DNA of 64,000 nucleotides from assembly GCA_028042835.1 (NCBI GenBank), contig JAOFOL010000003.1, positions 1-64,000 on the forward strand. The letters run 5' to 3'. The notes beneath the pieces were generated by a model. The model did no database searches and had not been told where the DNA came from. It worked only from the letters and a program-made list of their open reading frames with translations. This document shows positions 1-55,920 of this stretch, in pieces. The stretch comes from Opitutales bacterium. Its GTDB lineage: Bacteria; Verrucomicrobiota; Verrucomicrobiia; Opitutales; Seribacteraceae. Position 1 is the first letter of the stretch, and each line of letters opens with the position of its first letter. The translations under genes were made by a program, and so were the position numbers.

Positions 1-1838
1 CCGGGAGTGGGGTCATTATTCGAAAAGATGGCCTGATTGTAACCAATCACCACGTAGCTGGTAAAGCCACCCGTCTAACTTGCCGCCTTTATGATGGTGA
101 AGAAATAATGGCCGATCTCCTCGGTGCTGATGCGATGACAGATCTTGCGGTTCTGAAACTTCGTCTACATGAAAGTAAAAGAGGGACAAAAAAGCTGACA
201 ACCGCAACTTTTGCCAACTCCGATCAAGTAAAAGTGGGTGATACATGTTTCGCCATGGGCAGTCCTGCCGGTCTAACTCAATCTGTTACCCGTGGAATTA
301 TTTCTAACCTCGCAATGATTTCACCCAATGCAGGCAGCTTTAGACTGGATGGAGAAAATGTTGGCGAGTTGGTCAGATGGTTGGGCCATGATGCGGTAAT
401 TTTCCCTGGAAACAGCGGTGGACCACTGGTAAACAAGAATGGAGCTATCATAGGGATTAATGAAGTGGGTATCGGAAGTTTGGGTGGAGCGATCCCTTCT
501 AACTTAGCTAAAGAGGTTTCAAAAGAATTAGCCGAAAAAGGATATGTATCCCGGGCATGGACAGGTCTAGAATGTCAACCCAACCTTGATCTTAACAGTA
601 GTGGTTTGCTTGTATCTGGAGTGATTGATGGATCCCCAGCTGAAAAAGCTGGATTCAAACCCGGAGATATCATCACTCATTTTGGAGAGCAAGCTGTACA
701 GGCCCGGATTCCAGAGGACATACCACTGTTTAATCAAATATCATATGGTGCTGAAATCGGAAAAAACATTCAAGTTAGAGGACTTAGTCATGGAAAAACT
801 AAAAAGTGGAAATTAAAACCAGACCCGAGAGAATCTGCTTTTGCCAAAGAAAAAGAACTAAAAAGTTGGGGGCTCACTGTGCGCAACTTCACTCTGATGT
901 CATCCCTCGAAGCAAGAAGAGAAAATAAAGCAGGTGCCCAGGTTCACTCTGTTGGACGTGGAGGACCTTCATACAGTGCTAAACCGACGCTACTTCGGGG
1001 TGATGTTATCACAGGCGTAGACAAATTCAGCATAAACTCTATTTCAGACTTGCTAGATGCATCTCGCAAAATCACTCGGGGCAAAGGCGAACCCATTCCT
1101 GTACTGGTCAGATTCGAGAGAGGTCTGGCAAAGCTTCTCACAGTTGTAAAAATTGGCCCGGAAGCTGAAGAAAATCAACCACTGGAAGCGTGGAAGCCAT
1201 GGGTAGGCATTTCCACGCAAATCTTAACCCGCGACCTATCTGAGATCTTAGGATTACCACTTACCACTCGGGGCATTCGAATTGCACAGGTTTTCCCTGA
1301 AACACCTGCTGAAAAAGGAGGTTTGTTGGCCGGAGATTTACTTTTTCGAATTGATGGCCAAATTATCATGGCCCACCGTCAAGAAGATGCTGAAGTCTTC
1401 GGGAATATGATCAAGGAGTACCGTACAGATGCTACTATTCAGTTGGCTGGCCTCAGGAATAACTCACCATTAGACTTAAATCTAACTTTAGAAAAGCGCC
1501 CTCCACCTTCCAATGAACTCCCCAAGCTTAAAGAAAAATCCTTCGAGTTTGCCGTCCGCGAACTTTCATTCGCAGATCGGGTAAATGCCAGATTAGATAA
1601 TCAGCACCCAGGCCTTCTTGTCGAAAATGTTGAACCTGCAGGATGGGCCGCTCTAGCTGGTGTACGGCAAGGTGATTTACTTTTACAAATCGATGGAGAG
1701 ATTCAAGTTTCAATCGGTCAGTTCGAATCAACGCTGACAAAACTCATCGAAAATAAATCCAAACGGGTAATATTTTTCGTACGAAGAGGCATTCACACCA
1801 TGTACTTGGAACTCGAACCCGATTGGGACGATAATTAA
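1..1838 (+). CDS. HtrA/DegP-like serine protease with several PDZ domains, 5' end cut by the window
   Basis: The frame is open from base 3, upstream of the first ATG listed at 108, and gives at least 611 residues; the signal peptide and true start lie outside the window. A trypsin-like domain opens the visible part: His in 'GLIVTNHHV' (about residue 17 of the fragment), Asp in 'MTDLAVLKL' (about 47) and Ser in 'GNSGGPL' (about 138), so the catalytic triad is complete. After it come about four PDZ-like segments, the clearest containing 'AGFKPGDII', 'GGLLAGDLLF' and 'AGVRQGDLLLQIDG'. Classical DegP has two PDZ domains, so this is a longer, multi-PDZ envelope protease. It probably degrades or refolds misfolded exported proteins (family knowledge). 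Only 18 bases separate it from a dead protease paralogue, and both are probably co-transcribed. Confidence 0.9.
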   Translation, partial: GSGVIIRKDGLIVTNHHVAGKATRLTCRLYDGEEIMADLLGADAMTDLAVLKLRLHESKRGTKKLTTATFANSDQVKVGDTCFAMGSPAGLTQSVTRGIISNLAMISPNAGSFRLDGENVGELVRWLGHDAVIFPGNSGGPLVNKNGAIIGINEVGIGSLGGAIPSNLAKEVSKELAEKGYVSRAWTGLECQPNLDLNSSGLLVSGVIDGSPAEKAGFKPGDIITHFGEQAVQARIPEDIPLFNQISYGAEIGKNIQVRGLSHGKTKKWKLKPDPRESAFAKEKELKSWGLTVRNFTLMSSLEARRENKAGAQVHSVGRGGPSYSAKPTLLRGDVITGVDKFSINSISDLLDASRKITRGKGEPIPVLVRFERGLAKLLTVVKIGPEAEENQPLEAWKPWVGISTQILTRDLSEILGLPLTTRGIRIAQVFPETPAEKGGLLAGDLLFRIDGQIIMAHRQEDAEVFGNMIKEYRTDATIQLAGLRNNSPLDLNLTLEKRPPPSNELPKLKEKSFEFAVRELSFADRVNARLDNQHPGLLVENVEPAGWAALAGVRQGDLLLQIDGEIQVSIGQFESTLTKLIENKSKRVIFFVRRGIHTMYLELEPDWDDN

Positions 1839-1856: not shown

Positions 1857-2618
1857 ATGAAAACATTTCTTTTCTCATTCGTACTTTTACTACCCTTCCT
1901 TGTTTTTGCCGAACCCCACGAAAATGTGTGGAAAAAACTTCTTAAAAAAAAGGCAGATTGTGTCACCTGGGTATCAATCACCATGCGGGTCGAAGTTAGT
2001 GCTGGAGGCAGAAGTATGCCTCCTCAGGAACAGAAACTGGAAGCCCTTGGAACTATCCTTGCGGAAGATGGACTCACCGTGTTATCGCTAAGCACCGTTG
2101 ACCCAAGATCAAAAATCCTTTCCCGTATCCGTACAAGTGGAGCATCTGTGCAAGTTAATTACACCGAGGTTTTAATATTGATGCCTGATGGCTCTGAAAT
2201 TCCCGCTAAAATTTTGCTGAAAGATAATGACCTAGATTTAGCATTTGTTCTACCTTTGGAAAACAAAGATGAACAGGCAAAAGGTACCAGTAAAAAATTC
2301 TCCTTTATACCCAACCAGGCTACCAGACCATCTACCCCTACTGTTCTTGATGAAGTTGTTTCTATGAGTAAACTCGGTAGAAATCTCTACCGTCAATCGA
2401 CCCTCAGACGAGGATGGGTAAATGCAGTTATCGAGAAACCCCGCCAGTATTATGTAATTGAGAACACCACTCCGGGTACGCCTGTATTTAACAAAGAAGG
2501 AATATGGTTAGGTATAGTAGTTTATAAAATGGAACGCGGAAGACCGTCTGCAGTCGTAACCCTTCCAGCTAAAGACATCCTGGAAATAGCCGAACAAGTC
2601 CGCACTCGTACTCCTTGA
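1857..2618 (+). CDS. Secreted trypsin-fold pseudoprotease
   Basis: 253 residues with a signal peptide (hydrophobic run LFSFVLLLPFLVFA, cleavage near residue 18). It can be laid beside the upstream HtrA protein: 'GTILAEDGLTVLSLSTVD' stands where the protease has the His strand, 'DNDLDLAFVLP' matches the Asp strand, and 'TTPGTPVFNKEG' replaces 'GNSGGPLVNKNG'. His and Ser are therefore both lost while the Asp position is kept. No PDZ domain is present. I infer a non-catalytic binding partner, inhibitor or adaptor of the upstream protease; that role is not shown by the sequence. The ATG at 1857 is chosen because it begins a proper signal peptide. Confidence 0.75.
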   Translation: MKTFLFSFVLLLPFLVFAEPHENVWKKLLKKKADCVTWVSITMRVEVSAGGRSMPPQEQKLEALGTILAEDGLTVLSLSTVDPRSKILSRIRTSGASVQVNYTEVLILMPDGSEIPAKILLKDNDLDLAFVLPLENKDEQAKGTSKKFSFIPNQATRPSTPTVLDEVVSMSKLGRNLYRQSTLRRGWVNAVIEKPRQYYVIENTTPGTPVFNKEGIWLGIVVYKMERGRPSAVVTLPAKDILEIAEQVRTRTP

Positions 2619-2669: not shown

Positions 2670-3947
2670 ATGAACACGCACCGTTGCAAAAATTTCACTA
2701 AGCATGCCCTTATCTCATGGCTTTGTCTCTTCTTGTCTTTTGCCTGCACCGAGAAAAAACTAGGCCCTGATGATGTTGAATATCGAAAAGATGATAATGG
2801 GAGCCTCATTCTTTACCAAATAGAAAGCAATGAACCCTTCGGTACTGATGAGGAAGCATACATTGTCAGTGATTATAAAAATGGTAACAAACACTACAGC
2901 ATTTCATTTCTAAACGGATTAAAAGATGGGCCTTTTACCTTTTGGCAAAAAAATAAACTTCCACTGGTCTCCGGTTACTACACAAAAGGTAAGAAAAATG
3001 GACTCTTCATTGCCTACGGTAAAATTGGTGAGATCGTTTATGAAAAAACATATGGAATGGGTGAATTGGATGGAAACTTCTCCCTTTACTACCCTGCTTC
3101 CAATCACGATCTTTTTCGATACAAAGCAGAACTAGAAAAAAAAGACCTGAAGCCTGGAGAATTAAAAGTTAAAAATCATCTTCGCCTTAAAACCCAATTT
3201 AAAAACGGGAACCCAAATGGTTCCTACCAGGCCTATATTCACCCACGTGGAAAAAATCTCAGCTTAAAGGAACTTATTAAAGAAGAAGGGTCTTTTAATG
3301 AAGAAGGCTTGTTATCTAAACAACAATTTCGATACTTCCCTCGTACATCTGGACTTGGCGTTGTCTTACCTGTACTCGGAAGACTGGAAGAGGTTTTTCA
3401 ACCCAACGAACTAGGTTTTTCTGAAGCTATTGACCAAGCATCTGATGAAATAGCCAAAATACCAGCGTACCGGAACCCTAAGAATTTGCCGGCATATGTT
3501 TACACTTTGGATGACAAGGGGAACGAGATTGTCCCTATCTGGTCTACTCATATAAATAAATTTGCAATCCGGAATATGGATGGATACCTCCTACCTGATC
3601 GGTTTGAGCCCAAGTACGAATACTTCACTCGTAAAGCAAAACCATCCGCAGTAAAGCTTGTGCAAGCCTTAGATTTAAGCGGAGACCCCAACCTTTCATA
3701 TTACGAGAAAAAAGGAGGGGCGGTTGAAGTTGTCGGGCTTGATTCGGAAAATGTTATCGTTGATATTCTATGGAGCAGCCGCGAAAATAATGAAGTAATT
3801 CCTCTTGATGAGCGAATTAATGCCCGTCGCACTAGAATTCGTAGAACCTGGAACGATGGATTTGCAAGAGAAGCCGATTGGTTACTTCGCAATGGAAGCC
3901 AACTTTCCCTACGAGCACAGGATGAAATGTCTCGCTTTGGGATTTAA
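2670..3947 (+). CDS. MORN-repeat lipoprotein
   Basis: 425 residues. The N-terminus is hydrophobic and ends in 'FLSFACTEKK', a plausible but imperfect lipobox, so the mature protein probably starts at that Cys in the envelope. Residues about 65-180 hold repeats of the form 'NGLKDGPFTFW', 'KGKKNGLFIAYG', 'GELDGNFSLYYP' and 'NGNPNGSYQAY', typical of MORN repeats and of the YwqK-like antitoxin-repeat family. The C-terminal half is not recognised. MORN repeats form beta-hairpin scaffolds, and no enzymatic function can be assigned. It follows the protease pair on the same strand after 51 bases. Confidence 0.6.
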   Translation: MNTHRCKNFTKHALISWLCLFLSFACTEKKLGPDDVEYRKDDNGSLILYQIESNEPFGTDEEAYIVSDYKNGNKHYSISFLNGLKDGPFTFWQKNKLPLVSGYYTKGKKNGLFIAYGKIGEIVYEKTYGMGELDGNFSLYYPASNHDLFRYKAELEKKDLKPGELKVKNHLRLKTQFKNGNPNGSYQAYIHPRGKNLSLKELIKEEGSFNEEGLLSKQQFRYFPRTSGLGVVLPVLGRLEEVFQPNELGFSEAIDQASDEIAKIPAYRNPKNLPAYVYTLDDKGNEIVPIWSTHINKFAIRNMDGYLLPDRFEPKYEYFTRKAKPSAVKLVQALDLSGDPNLSYYEKKGGAVEVVGLDSENVIVDILWSSRENNEVIPLDERINARRTRIRRTWNDGFAREADWLLRNGSQLSLRAQDEMSRFGI

Positions 3948-3966: not shown

Positions 3967-4983
3967 CTAGGGTTCGAGCGAATCGAAAGGATTTATGTCC
4001 GGAGACTTTCCCTTAGTAGGATTGTTTGGATTTGCACTTGGGGGAACTCCATCAAATGGGTTGGAAGGACTTGCATCCTTGGGTGCAACTTGATCAAAAG
4101 GACTTTGAGTAGGCATTGCTGAATCAAATGGGTTTGTTGTTGGAGCAGACTGTTCAAATGGATTAACCGTACCTCCACTTTTAGGAACGCTGTCAAAAGG
4201 ATTTGCCCCACTTGGCGGCTTGGGTGCGACAGCATCAAACGGATTTAAGGTACCCCCGGGAGGTGCCACCGAATCAAATGGGTTAGGCTTCTTGTCGTTG
4301 AGCATATCAAATGGATTGACGGGTTTAGTTTTGAATGAATCTTTTACACCTCCGGGAGGTCCCAACCATGGTGGGACATCCTCTAATTCATAAAAAGGCT
4401 TAAAAGAAATTTCTTCACGGGTCACCAAACGGGTGATCCGGGGACGCAATTGATAATTCCATTCAAAAAGGATTGGGTCTGTCGGTTTGTGCTCCCGCAA
4501 AGGTTCGATCACCTGATGATCATACCCTCCTCCATTTTTAGGATATCCACCAACCCAGGGCAAATAGAAGCGCCATGGAATTTGTTCATCTGAATTTTGG
4601 ACATCAATCCAACGATCTCCAATCTCAAGCAGATAGCCCTCGAACATACCACTTGTTTTTGAAGGTCGAAGAATCTCAATTTCATTTGCCCGTAAATGTC
4701 CATCCCAATGCCAACTTAGAGAAACACGGTTTCCGACAATCACCTCTTCGAAACGGCTAAGCATAGCCCGGTTAAAACCACCGCCCCGAGATGGCCCCAA
4801 TCCCTGCCATGGTGCAAGATAGCGATGGGCATATCCTTTATCATCTTTAACCTCGATCCAAAATTCACCCTTGGAAACCAGAATTCCCTGTAAATGCCCT
4901 TTTTGAAGTAAAGGACGATCCACTGACCAGACTGTCTGGACAAGCAGAAAAAAGATACCCAGATAAACTTGCTTAAACTTCAC
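3967..4983 (-). CDS. Secreted protein with a duplicated domain and NPFD repeats
   Basis: 338 residues starting at a GTG that overlaps the stop codon of the upstream aldehyde dehydrogenase gene by 11 bases. A signal peptide is visible (VYLGIFFLLVQTVWS). Residues about 28-107 and 112-190 are diverged copies of one unit: 'GILVSKGEFWIEV...GGGFN' and 'GYLLEIGDRWIDV...GGGYD', each followed by a short basic strand. From about residue 220 the chain is disordered, Pro/Gly/Asn-rich, and carries nine copies of a tetrapeptide, eight NPF[DE] and one SPFD, spaced roughly 10-18 residues apart; the last lies four residues from the C-terminus. No function is assigned. NPF tripeptides are the ligands of eukaryotic EH domains, which may be coincidence. 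Confidence 0.65.
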   Translation of the reverse strand: MKFKQVYLGIFFLLVQTVWSVDRPLLQKGHLQGILVSKGEFWIEVKDDKGYAHRYLAPWQGLGPSRGGGFNRAMLSRFEEVIVGNRVSLSWHWDGHLRANEIEILRPSKTSGMFEGYLLEIGDRWIDVQNSDEQIPWRFYLPWVGGYPKNGGGYDHQVIEPLREHKPTDPILFEWNYQLRPRITRLVTREEISFKPFYELEDVPPWLGPPGGVKDSFKTKPVNPFDMLNDKKPNPFDSVAPPGGTLNPFDAVAPKPPSGANPFDSVPKSGGTVNPFEQSAPTTNPFDSAMPTQSPFDQVAPKDASPSNPFDGVPPSANPNNPTKGKSPDINPFDSLEP

Positions 4984-28204: not shown

Positions 28205-34717
<6,513 letters not shown>

Positions 34718-52124: not shown

Positions 52125-52838
52125 GTGGAACTTATAAGCAAATCAAATTCTATCAATCATCTAATCATTGGCGCATCCCGTGGAATCGGGCGGGCACTGG
52201 TGGATATATCAATAGAAGCAGGTAATCAAGTGTACGCTCTTTCCAGGAGTGCCCCCGAAAATGAAAGGGAAGGATGCAAATGGATCACTGCCGATGCGAC
52301 GCAGCCAGATACCTACATGGATTCCCTTCCTGAAAAAATCAACGCTCTCACATTTTGCCCTGGCAAAGTAATCCTTGGCCCAATCAAGCGACTGAAAGCT
52401 GAACAGATGTTGCAGGCTTATCAAACCAGCGTGTTGGATGCATTTACAGTTATACAATCTTTATTGCCCAGACTGGAAGGTTCCATCGCATTACTTTCAT
52501 CGGTAGCAGCCAGAACCGGGCTCCCCAATCATTGTGCGATTTCTGCAGCCAAGTCGGCTTTGGAAGGCTTTGCTATTGCCTTGGCAGCTGATTTAGCACC
52601 GAAAGTTAGGGTAAATGTAGTGGCCCCCACTCTTACCCCCACAGAAATGGGTACCGCGATGGTGGGCGGAGAAAAAATGCTCCCCATGATCGAGCAGAGA
52701 CATCCATTAAAGAGAATTCCTGCAGTTACTGAGATTGCATCCACCCTCGCCTTTCTCCATTCAGCAGCGGCCACATCCATAACCGGACAGGTATTGAAAG
52801 TGGATGGTGGTCTTTCACAGTTACGATTGAATTCATGA
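52125..52838 (+). CDS. Short-chain dehydrogenase/reductase
   Basis: 237 residues from a GTG start. The cofactor motif 'IIGASRGIGRALV', the Ser in 'ALLSSVAARTGLPNHCAISAAKSALEGF' and the catalytic Lys in 'SAAKSA' are visible; the usual Tyr of YxxxK is His-Cys-Ala-Ile-Ser-Ala-Ala-Lys here, so the Tyr appears to be absent or displaced. Its stop overlaps the photolyase start as ATGA, so the two are co-translated. SDR genes next to photolyase genes are known from light-responsive clusters in proteobacteria; substrate unknown. Confidence 0.85.
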   Translation: MELISKSNSINHLIIGASRGIGRALVDISIEAGNQVYALSRSAPENEREGCKWITADATQPDTYMDSLPEKINALTFCPGKVILGPIKRLKAEQMLQAYQTSVLDAFTVIQSLLPRLEGSIALLSSVAARTGLPNHCAISAAKSALEGFAIALAADLAPKVRVNVVAPTLTPTEMGTAMVGGEKMLPMIEQRHPLKRIPAVTEIASTLAFLHSAAATSITGQVLKVDGGLSQLRLNS

Positions 52839-54286
52839 TTGCGGAAGTTTCCTCCTCCGCTCCCGTTCTTGTCTGGTTTAGAAAAGATTTGCGCTTACGG
52901 GATAATCCATCCCTAAACGCCGCTCTTACTGCTAAGCGTAAGATCATCCCTGTATATATATGGGATGAGGAAGAAGGCGGGCAATGGAGCCCCGGAGCAG
53001 CGGCTCGCTGGTGGCTACACCATGCGTTGGAAAGCCTGGGGAAAGAAATCAGTAATTTAGGGGGTGAGCTTATTCTAGCCAAAGGAAAGGCAGCCGATTT
53101 AATTTCTCAAATCGCTCAAGATCATGGAGCAGATCAAGTTCTTTACGGCAGGGCTTACGACCCTCCCGGATTGGCCACACAGGAAAAAGTGGAAGAGACT
53201 CTTGATCAAGCCGGGATCGATACAGCCTCTTTTAACGCCTCCCTTTTGCAGGAGCCATGGGAAACCAAAAATGGATCAGGAAAACCCTTCCAAGTATTTA
53301 CTCCTTATTGGCGGAAATCCCGTTCAATTATTTACCGTGAACCGTCTGAATACGAGATAACAGAGCTGTCGTTTCATAATTCGCCTACTTCTAGAAATTC
53401 ACTTAATCAACTTGATCTACTCCCGGATCACTCCTGGCATGAAAAGCTTACGGAACACTGGGTAGTCACAGAATCCGCAGCCCATGAGCAACTTGAAAGA
53501 ACGGTCAACGAAGTAACTCATTCCTATGCTACACGCAGGAATCATCCATCTGTCAATGGCACCTCCCGCCTGTCACCCTACCTTGCCTGGGGTTTAATTA
53601 GTCCCCGACAAATCTGCCAGAATGTCCTTCAGGCTGAAAACGAAGGAAGCCACCGTGGAGAGAACAAATTTCTGGTCGAAATCGGATGGCGTGAATTTTC
53701 CTACCACCTACTCTATCACTTCCCATCGATTCCAGACCAACCTCTACGGCCCAAATACGCGGCATTTCCTTGGCTCGATGACAAGGAAAACCTCAAACGC
53801 TGGCAATTTGGAAACACGGGCTACCCTATGGTCGATGCCGGTATGAGGCAACTCTATGAAACCGGTTGGATGCATAACCGGGTGCGCATGGTGGTGGCAT
53901 CGTTCTTAGTCAAACATCTGCTTATTTCTTGGACGGAGGGTGCCCGATGGTTTTGGGATACTCTGGTCGATGCTGATCTGGCAAGTAATACTCAGGGATG
54001 GCAATGGGCTGCCGGTTGCGGGGCGGATGCGGCCCCCTATTTTAGAATTTTCAACCCAATCACCCAAGGGGAAAAATTCGATACCCGCGGACTTTATGCC
54101 AAACGCTGGATTCCATCTCTCGAAAAACTTCCATCCAAATGGATATTCCGTCCTTGGGAAGCCCCTGCTACCATACTCGAAGAAAATGGTGTAGATTTAG
54201 GAAGCAACTATCCGGAACCATGTGTTGACCACGCAGAAGGTCGAGCCCGTGCTCTCGCTGCCCTTGCCACCCTTAAGACACCGTAA
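52835..54286 (+). CDS. phrB: Class I CPD deoxyribodipyrimidine photolyase
   Basis: 483 residues, normal length. The N-terminal antenna domain begins 'VLVWFRKDLRLRDNPSLNAAL'. The FAD domain contains 'TSRLSPYLAWGLISPRQI', 'EIGWREFSYHLLYHFP', 'GYPMVDAGMRQLYETGWMHNRVRMVVASFLVKHLLI' and 'DADLASNTQGWQWAAGCGADAAPYFRIFNP'. The 'WMHNRVRM' form with Asn is that of CPD photolyases. It uses blue light to split cyclobutane pyrimidine dimers. Co-translated with the SDR gene and 47 bases before a second, different photolyase-family gene. Confidence 0.94.
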   Translation: MIAEVSSSAPVLVWFRKDLRLRDNPSLNAALTAKRKIIPVYIWDEEEGGQWSPGAAARWWLHHALESLGKEISNLGGELILAKGKAADLISQIAQDHGADQVLYGRAYDPPGLATQEKVEETLDQAGIDTASFNASLLQEPWETKNGSGKPFQVFTPYWRKSRSIIYREPSEYEITELSFHNSPTSRNSLNQLDLLPDHSWHEKLTEHWVVTESAAHEQLERTVNEVTHSYATRRNHPSVNGTSRLSPYLAWGLISPRQICQNVLQAENEGSHRGENKFLVEIGWREFSYHLLYHFPSIPDQPLRPKYAAFPWLDDKENLKRWQFGNTGYPMVDAGMRQLYETGWMHNRVRMVVASFLVKHLLISWTEGARWFWDTLVDADLASNTQGWQWAAGCGADAAPYFRIFNPITQGEKFDTRGLYAKRWIPSLEKLPSKWIFRPWEAPATILEENGVDLGSNYPEPCVDHAEGRARALAALATLKTP

Positions 54287-54333
54287 GTGAGAGGCTTTCT
54301 CCACACTCCACCTTCACTCTTTTCCATTCCATC

Positions 54334-55920
54334 ATGAAAACCGCAGTCTTATGGTTTCGGAAATGTCTTCGTTTAGACGATAACCCATCCCTCGTTCAGG
54401 CATGTGAAGACAGCAATGTGGATTCCATTCTGCCAATTTTTATTTTGGACCCGGGAATTGTTGGTGAAGGCTTTGAAAAATATGGAAAAAACCGCTTACG
54501 ATTTTTACTTGAAAACCTTGAAGATCTTGATCAGCAATTACAGGCTAAAGTATCCAATCCTCTGCATATCTTTCATGGTTCCCCATCCAACGCAGTTGTC
54601 GGTTTACAAAATTATTTAAAAGACAGGATGTATTCCTTTCATTCTGAATACTGCTCTGAACCTCATGGAAGATCGATATCCCAAAGTATACAGGATACCC
54701 TTTCAATAGATAAAGATATACCCTGTCACTTTCACCCTGCTTCCCATACCATCCTGGATTTGGAAAAAACAATCTCTGTGGACGGATTTAAAAATCCAAA
54801 ATCGATGAAGGATATTCAGAAGATTTTTTCCTCAACATTCTCTATTGATCAGGATGGTTTTTTTCAGATTCCGGAGATTTCACCGGAACCAAAAGTTTTA
54901 AAACCGCCTCCGAGTGATTTTAATTTCCAATCCTGTGCCCAACTCTTCAAAGGAGACCTGCACACCTGTTCTTCCCTACGAATCAAATTTTCAAAACTTA
55001 AATTTTTAGATACGACTGATGAGAACTGCTATTTCAAAGGCGGAGAAAGCATAGCTCGGGAGCGCTTAAAAGAAAAAGTTTCCACCCGTCATGATTATGT
55101 AAACACATTCAAAAAACCAAAAACATCTTCAACGAACATACCCTCTAATCCCCGCGAACCGAGTACCACGGGTCTTTCTCCTTACATAACAATTGGTTCA
55201 TTATCAGTCCGCCGACTGTGGAAAGAAGTTGAAAAAGCAAATCGGACGGGTCCCCATAGTACCCCACCCGAATCCTTACACGGACAACTACTTTTCCGTG
55301 AAATGTTTTATCTCCTTTCGCGATCCGTAGAAAATTGGGATCAGGATCAGAACAATTCTATGTGTAAGGAAATCAAGTGGGGAGAACACGATGATATAAA
55401 GATGACTGCATGGGAAGATGGTAAGACTGGATTCCCGTTAATTGATGCCCTGATGAGACAGTTGAAATCCACCGGTTGGATGCACCATCTTGGCAGGCAT
55501 GCGGTTTCCTGTTTCCTCACCCGCGGACAACTTTGGCAGCATTGGAAAAGTGGGCGTGATATATTTGACCACAAACTACTCGACAGTGACTGGGCTTTAA
55601 ATAATGCGAATTGGCTTTGGCTATCTGGCGTGGCTCCATTTTCCATGCCCTATTTTCGTTTATATAATCCCTGTCCGGATGGAAAATCCAGCCTCAATGT
55701 AGATGCAGAAACCGCAGGTTTCATTAGGCACTGGGTCCCGGAATTAGAAAATTTTCCTGTCAAATATATCTACGAACCCCATCTTGCTCCCCTTGGTATT
55801 CAGGAATCGGCAGGATGTATAATTGGAAAAGATTATCCTCTACCCATAGTTAACCGTAAGGAAGTGGCCAAAGAAAACCTCGCCAGTTTCAAAACCAGTT
55901 TAGCCCAGCTATCTGCTTAG
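54334..55920 (+). CDS. Photolyase/cryptochrome of the animal-like (6-4) type
   Basis: 528 residues. It opens 'AVLWFRKCLRLDDNPSLVQAC', close to the eukaryotic 'WFRKGLRLHDNPAL'. The FAD domain has 'TTGLSPYITIGSLSVRRLW', 'GQLLFREMFYLLS' and 'GFPLIDALMRQLKSTGWMHHLGRHAVSCFLTRGQLWQHW'. The 'HHLGRHAV' motif (His about 385 and 389) corresponds to the catalytic His pair of (6-4) photolyases, where CPD enzymes have 'HNRVRM'. 'LLDSDWALNNANWLWLSG' and 'FPVKYIYEPHLAP' also match animal cryptochromes/(6-4) photolyases rather than bacterial classes. It lacks a long C-terminal tail, so DNA repair is more likely than signalling. Ends in a 4-base overlap with the convergent ligase gene. Confidence 0.85.
   Translation: MKTAVLWFRKCLRLDDNPSLVQACEDSNVDSILPIFILDPGIVGEGFEKYGKNRLRFLLENLEDLDQQLQAKVSNPLHIFHGSPSNAVVGLQNYLKDRMYSFHSEYCSEPHGRSISQSIQDTLSIDKDIPCHFHPASHTILDLEKTISVDGFKNPKSMKDIQKIFSSTFSIDQDGFFQIPEISPEPKVLKPPPSDFNFQSCAQLFKGDLHTCSSLRIKFSKLKFLDTTDENCYFKGGESIARERLKEKVSTRHDYVNTFKKPKTSSTNIPSNPREPSTTGLSPYITIGSLSVRRLWKEVEKANRTGPHSTPPESLHGQLLFREMFYLLSRSVENWDQDQNNSMCKEIKWGEHDDIKMTAWEDGKTGFPLIDALMRQLKSTGWMHHLGRHAVSCFLTRGQLWQHWKSGRDIFDHKLLDSDWALNNANWLWLSGVAPFSMPYFRLYNPCPDGKSSLNVDAETAGFIRHWVPELENFPVKYIYEPHLAPLGIQESAGCIIGKDYPLPIVNRKEVAKENLASFKTSLAQLSA

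Follow-up and report, generated by a model that had tools for sequence, protein, structure and literature searches.

A probably exported tandem OB-fold protein with a conserved, multivalent NPF[DE] tail in a family of marine Verrucomicrobiota

The gene at positions 3967–4983 (minus strand) of the stretch analysed here raises the question of what reads a C-terminal tail crowded with NPF motifs when the protein is bacterial: a partner in the same cell envelope, neighbouring copies of the protein itself, the EH domains of a eukaryote, or nothing specific. The stretch of 64,000 nucleotides, referred to as the window, opens contig C34 (its first 64 kb); the MAG to which this contig belongs measures 2.1 Mb and is 63% complete. 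According to the ORF list and its translation, the gene encodes 338 amino acids from a GTG start; together with homologs in 39 of 92 relatives, these data describe a probably exported tandem OB-fold protein with an NPF[DE] tail.

Protein architecture and the motif copies

All features of this gene are given on the minus strand. Residues 1–21 (4921–4983, MKFKQVYLGIFFLLVQTVWSV) form a probable Sec signal peptide, as judged by eye, from the hydrophobic N-terminus of the homologs and from a predicted helix at residues 2–19. They are followed by domain 1 (residues 28–107, 4663–4902), a predicted OB barrel according to hhalign, the structure model and Foldseek, and by domain 2 (residues 110–190, 4414–4656), which the model and a profile-profile comparison (hhalign probability 99.5%, E 5.8e-23) identify as a tandem duplicate of domain 1, in agreement with the first-pass annotation. 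In an AlphaFold2 model built with 30 orthologs, the core is ordered (pLDDT about 95) and the tail disordered (pLDDT about 50). Nearly all of the best Foldseek matches to the core were OB-barrel proteins (cold-shock, RNase II, S1, IF5A, Mpa); TM-scores were low because the query contained the tail and two barrels, and the OB assignment is drawn from the consistency of the list, not from any single score. The core is accordingly a predicted pair of OB barrels, a fold that it would have in common with the cold-shock, S1, RNase II CSD, Mpa interdomain and MalK regulatory OB families. Unlike these, the protein is probably exported, its core carries the signature W-x-GG-x-P-x-x-GG, which sets it apart, and no match was obtained among Pfam or NCBIfam families, so that by sequence it falls into no described OB family. 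No PDB entry was a convincing sequence relative, and a viral fold library gave weak OB-like matches only.

The Pro-rich tail (residues 214–338, 3970–4344) is classed as disordered by its pLDDT and its composition (27 P, 13 S, 12 D and 12 N among 125 residues). An exact count returned seven NPFD, one NPFE and one SPFD, just as had been read from the sequence before (eight NPF[DE] and one SPFD), whereas 100,000 shuffles of the tail gave 0.05 motifs on average and never more than 3. The copies start at residues 223, 234, 247, 261, 274, 284, 294, 308 and 331. Motifs 1 to 4 are all NPFD and lie at 4306–4317 (followed by ML), 4273–4284 (SV), 4234–4245 (AV) and 4192–4203 (SV); motif 5 is the NPFE (4153–4164, QS), motif 6 again NPFD (4123–4134, SA), motif 7 the SPFD (4093–4104, QV) and motif 8 NPFD (4051–4062, GV). 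Motif 9 (NPFD, 3982–3993, followed by SL) is close to the C-terminus, where an NPF block is kept in most homologs. Across the homologs, the extended consensus reads [NS]PF[DE], then mostly Q, S or N, then mostly V, A, L or I.

Conservation and distribution of the tail

Ten pairs of relatives served to compare the motif with the rest of the protein, motif positions being chosen by a motif match in one of the two proteins. Residue differences amounted to 0–14% in the motif, 9–30% in the core and 30–61% in the linkers, and synonymous codon differences were of comparable size in all three. Among 30 homologs, 220 exact motifs were counted against 20 one-off variants. Since the motif changes less than core and linkers at similar synonymous change, these alignments indicate that purifying selection acts on the NPF[DE] motif itself, at the level of the protein. 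The nine copies of the window gene use seven distinct codon versions, and codons likewise vary in the homolog genes; as the codons differ among copies, the motif is maintained at the protein level, and recent DNA-level tandem duplication or slippage was ruled out as the origin of the repeats.

With the exception of one weak match, all homologs belong to a single family of marine Verrucomicrobiota, the nearest named relatives being Verrucomicrobiota MAGs and single-cell genomes of marine surveys. Nearly all genomes of this family carry one tailed ortholog, at a single conserved locus. The first-pass annotation had suggested searching related genomes for the tail and for variation in its copy number; the same tail was indeed recovered, with copies ranging from 2–3 to 10. 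Most orthologs have 5 to 10 copies, and those of genus g3 have 2–3, with DPFG alongside NPFD. One two-copy ortholog is truncated by a contig end, and all intact orthologs are multivalent. A homologous tail that had lost its NPF motifs was named beforehand as the case that would count against a role for the motif; NPF proved to be strongly conserved in the homologous tails.

A DNA pattern that requires three NPF[DE] motifs at set spacing was present in 27 of 86 relatives, every one of them in the same family, and each match lay on the NPF-tail gene or on its tail at a contig end; the reversed pattern, used as control, gave zero matches everywhere. Across 388 genomes of the phylum, the triple pattern was not found apart from the NPF-tail gene itself. 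A wider family of NPF proteins within the genome was ruled out, three closely spaced motifs being confined to this gene. Several family genomes without a match contain the neighbour gene or a fragment of the tail at a contig end, two (G036 and G038) have a tail-less paralog only, and one (G004, 93% complete) lacks both the NPF-tail gene and its MORN neighbour, for which we have no explanation. In genome G016 (L103, contig C27), an alpha-toroid gene with several stops and shifts lies beside part of another copy of the NPF gene; this fragment resembles the G014 ortholog and may be contamination or what is left of a second locus in decay.

Elsewhere in the phylum the core domain is sparse and occurs in small proteins with hydrophobic N-termini and no tail. 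Small exported Verrucomicrobiota proteins (L085, L086, L088, L089) contain one copy of the domain found in the NPF-tail core, and tail-less tandem paralogs (L095–L097) share it as well; tail-less tandem paralogs occur in genus g4. All of these have the signature W..GG.P..GGG.D and an N-terminal hydrophobic stretch but, unlike the window gene, lack an NPF tail and are found at other loci. FecR-like and TSP3/CarboxypepD_reg proteins (L101, L083, L076) carry at least one copy of the domain in a different architecture, also without the tail: L101 (2008–3462) encodes a FecR-like protein with C-terminal copies of the OB-type domain, and L076 (128–5185) a 1685-residue protein with several copies followed by CarboxypepD_reg domains. 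To judge by these core homologs, the tail is an added module.

The surrounding genes

On the plus strand, the gene for a MORN-type lipoprotein (2670–3947; assigned by synteny, Cys26 and a MORN-like fold) converges on the NPF-tail gene and is a candidate partner. Its Cys26 is conserved in 90% or more, and the two genes adjoin wherever both sit well inside one contig. Past it, the conserved order continues with a degenerate trypsin-like protease (1857–2618, plus strand; kept by synteny, Trypsin_2 E 0.002, below cut-off), an HtrA/Do-type protease with PDZ domains (108–1838, plus strand; N-terminus missing at the contig end), an AI-2E transporter and dnaE. The lipoprotein gene and the two protease genes remain linked to the NPF-tail gene across the whole family.

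The other flank shows three arrangements across the family. In the clade of the window, an aldehyde dehydrogenase gene lies upstream on the same strand and overlaps the NPF-tail gene by 11 bp (4973–4983, minus strand, GTGAAGTTTAA), an overlap conserved wherever the clade has this neighbour. The overlap with an unrelated metabolic gene that had been pointed out earlier is thus real, but it is an ordinary operon overlap in one clade. The upstream neighbour differs in other genera and the metabolic neighbour is therefore incidental; a functional tie to aldehyde dehydrogenase or to FAA hydrolase was ruled out, because the neighbour is limited to one clade. In genera g3, g4 and part of g1, the NPF-tail gene ends an ExbB-type envelope operon (L070, 26–7920; also L067, L073, L074 and L075) coding for an ExbB-like channel, two membrane coiled-coil proteins, an Ig/TSP3 protein and an alpha-toroid protein. 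The latter is squalene-cyclase-like, and many alpha-toroid paralogs are present per genome. In g2, the flanking gene codes for a divergent small membrane protein. The ExbB-type arrangement is probably ancestral, as it is the one shared by the largest number of genera.

Two orthologs (L005, 1462–2820; L008, 1126–2430) contain an STN/secretin-like domain of about 100 residues within the tail, between NPF motifs, with matches below the Pfam cut-off. STN domains are usual in TonB and secretin proteins, and the insertion fits an envelope site. Farther along the window, a 2170-residue ORF with a signal-peptide-like N-terminus (28205–34717, plus strand) had no Pfam match at E 0.001, and two adjoining genes of the DNA photolyase/cryptochrome family are located at 52835–55920 (plus strand).

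What the tail may bind

We lean towards an exported envelope scaffold whose multivalent NPF[DE] tail docks a bacterial partner. The two OB-type barrels would form the folded body of an exported cell-envelope protein, the disordered Pro-rich tail would display several [NS]-P-F-[DE]-x-(V/A/L/I) motifs, and many weak contacts would jointly bind a partner located in the envelope of the same bacterium. Export and an envelope site are suggested by the signal peptide and the neighbours, and from these data we infer a docking role for the motif and a bacterial nature of its partner. The earlier idea of sticky repeats for a bacterial surface partner is supported as regards the repeats, in that the motif is selected and the intact orthologs are multivalent, and the bacterial partner is what the context points to. 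Linkage alone makes the MORN-type lipoprotein and the PDZ protease candidate partners: convergent neighbours need not cooperate, and dnaE and the transporter share the same conserved block. The C-terminus as a ligand of the HtrA PDZ domains is not favoured, the C-termini being mostly charged or polar and in this respect probably unlike usual ligands. Motif conservation could also serve self-association or a structural turn.

Self-association is the main rival. Tails that bind adjacent copies of the protein, at their OB barrels or at their tails, would build an envelope network or coat, and multivalent stickers, spacer linkers and two barrels per chain make a self-assembling geometry. In line with this, the tail occurs only joined to the OB barrel pair, and most tailed orthologs keep Trp42 and the HLR segment of domain 1, both of which are replaced in the tail-less paralogs of g4. 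However, the tail of the model is of low confidence throughout and makes no ordered contact with the core, and in view of the tree the differences at Trp42 and HLR may merely reflect descent; homotypic binding is on balance unlikely. Still less probable is a tail that simply spans the periplasm or cell wall, with NPF[DE] forming turns without a specific partner: its Pro-rich, disordered nature and its variable length and copy number would suit such a spacer, but Phe and Asp/Glu are better kept than residues of the folded core, which is not expected of one.

A ligand that mimics endocytic NPF adaptors and meets host or grazer EH domains is, in our estimate, very improbable, even though the tail does present multiple NPF tripeptides followed by an acidic residue in a disordered region. 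It resembles in this the NPF region of Rabenosyn-5 (PF16601) and the ligands of Eps15 and other EH proteins, which are disordered and multivalent, with many NPF often followed by an acidic residue, and NPF multivalency raises EPS15 binding (PMC12808100). Two orthologs approached the Pfam family 'Rabosyn-5 repeating NPF' (PF16601; E 6e-5 to 8e-5, 23.7 and 24.0 bits, below the cut-off of 27.6); the window protein had no Pfam match to it and, unlike the eukaryotic adaptors, is bacterial and has a probable signal peptide. NPF is also read by POLE2 and hence is not specific to EH domains (PMC12808100). A search for EH domains (PF12763) was negative in all 43 relatives, but it was so in the control genomes as well, which makes this weak evidence. 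Neither the patchy distribution nor the mobile context of a host effector was seen: the gene is near-universal in the family and keeps one locus among envelope genes, no delivery system was seen beside it, and the records of the marine MAGs and single cells give no pointer to a host. The proposed contact with a eukaryotic host or grazer thus found no positive support.

Our literature search on NPFD repeats and bacterial NPF effectors brought up no relevant precedent, and in this limited literature and the family libraries we found no earlier description of the NPF-tail family, nor of any bacterial tail built of NPF repeats. In eukaryotes, much work has gone into multivalent short linear motifs under clear purifying selection; to our knowledge, they have seldom been documented in exported bacterial proteins. 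The case is also a warning not to take a bacterial NPF for host mimicry by default. The 30 homologs, with 2–3 to 10 copies and with tail-less paralogs as controls, offer a natural series for finding the bacterial motif reader. Beyond the docking tail that we favour, we put forward tentatively, as a possibility that we rate as somewhat doubtful, that this family has evolved its own envelope NPF-reading system. The multivalent NPF[DE]-x-hydrophobic tail would have a dedicated receptor, likewise bacterial, and the two would operate outside the cytoplasm, as a convergent counterpart of the eukaryotic NPF/EH network.
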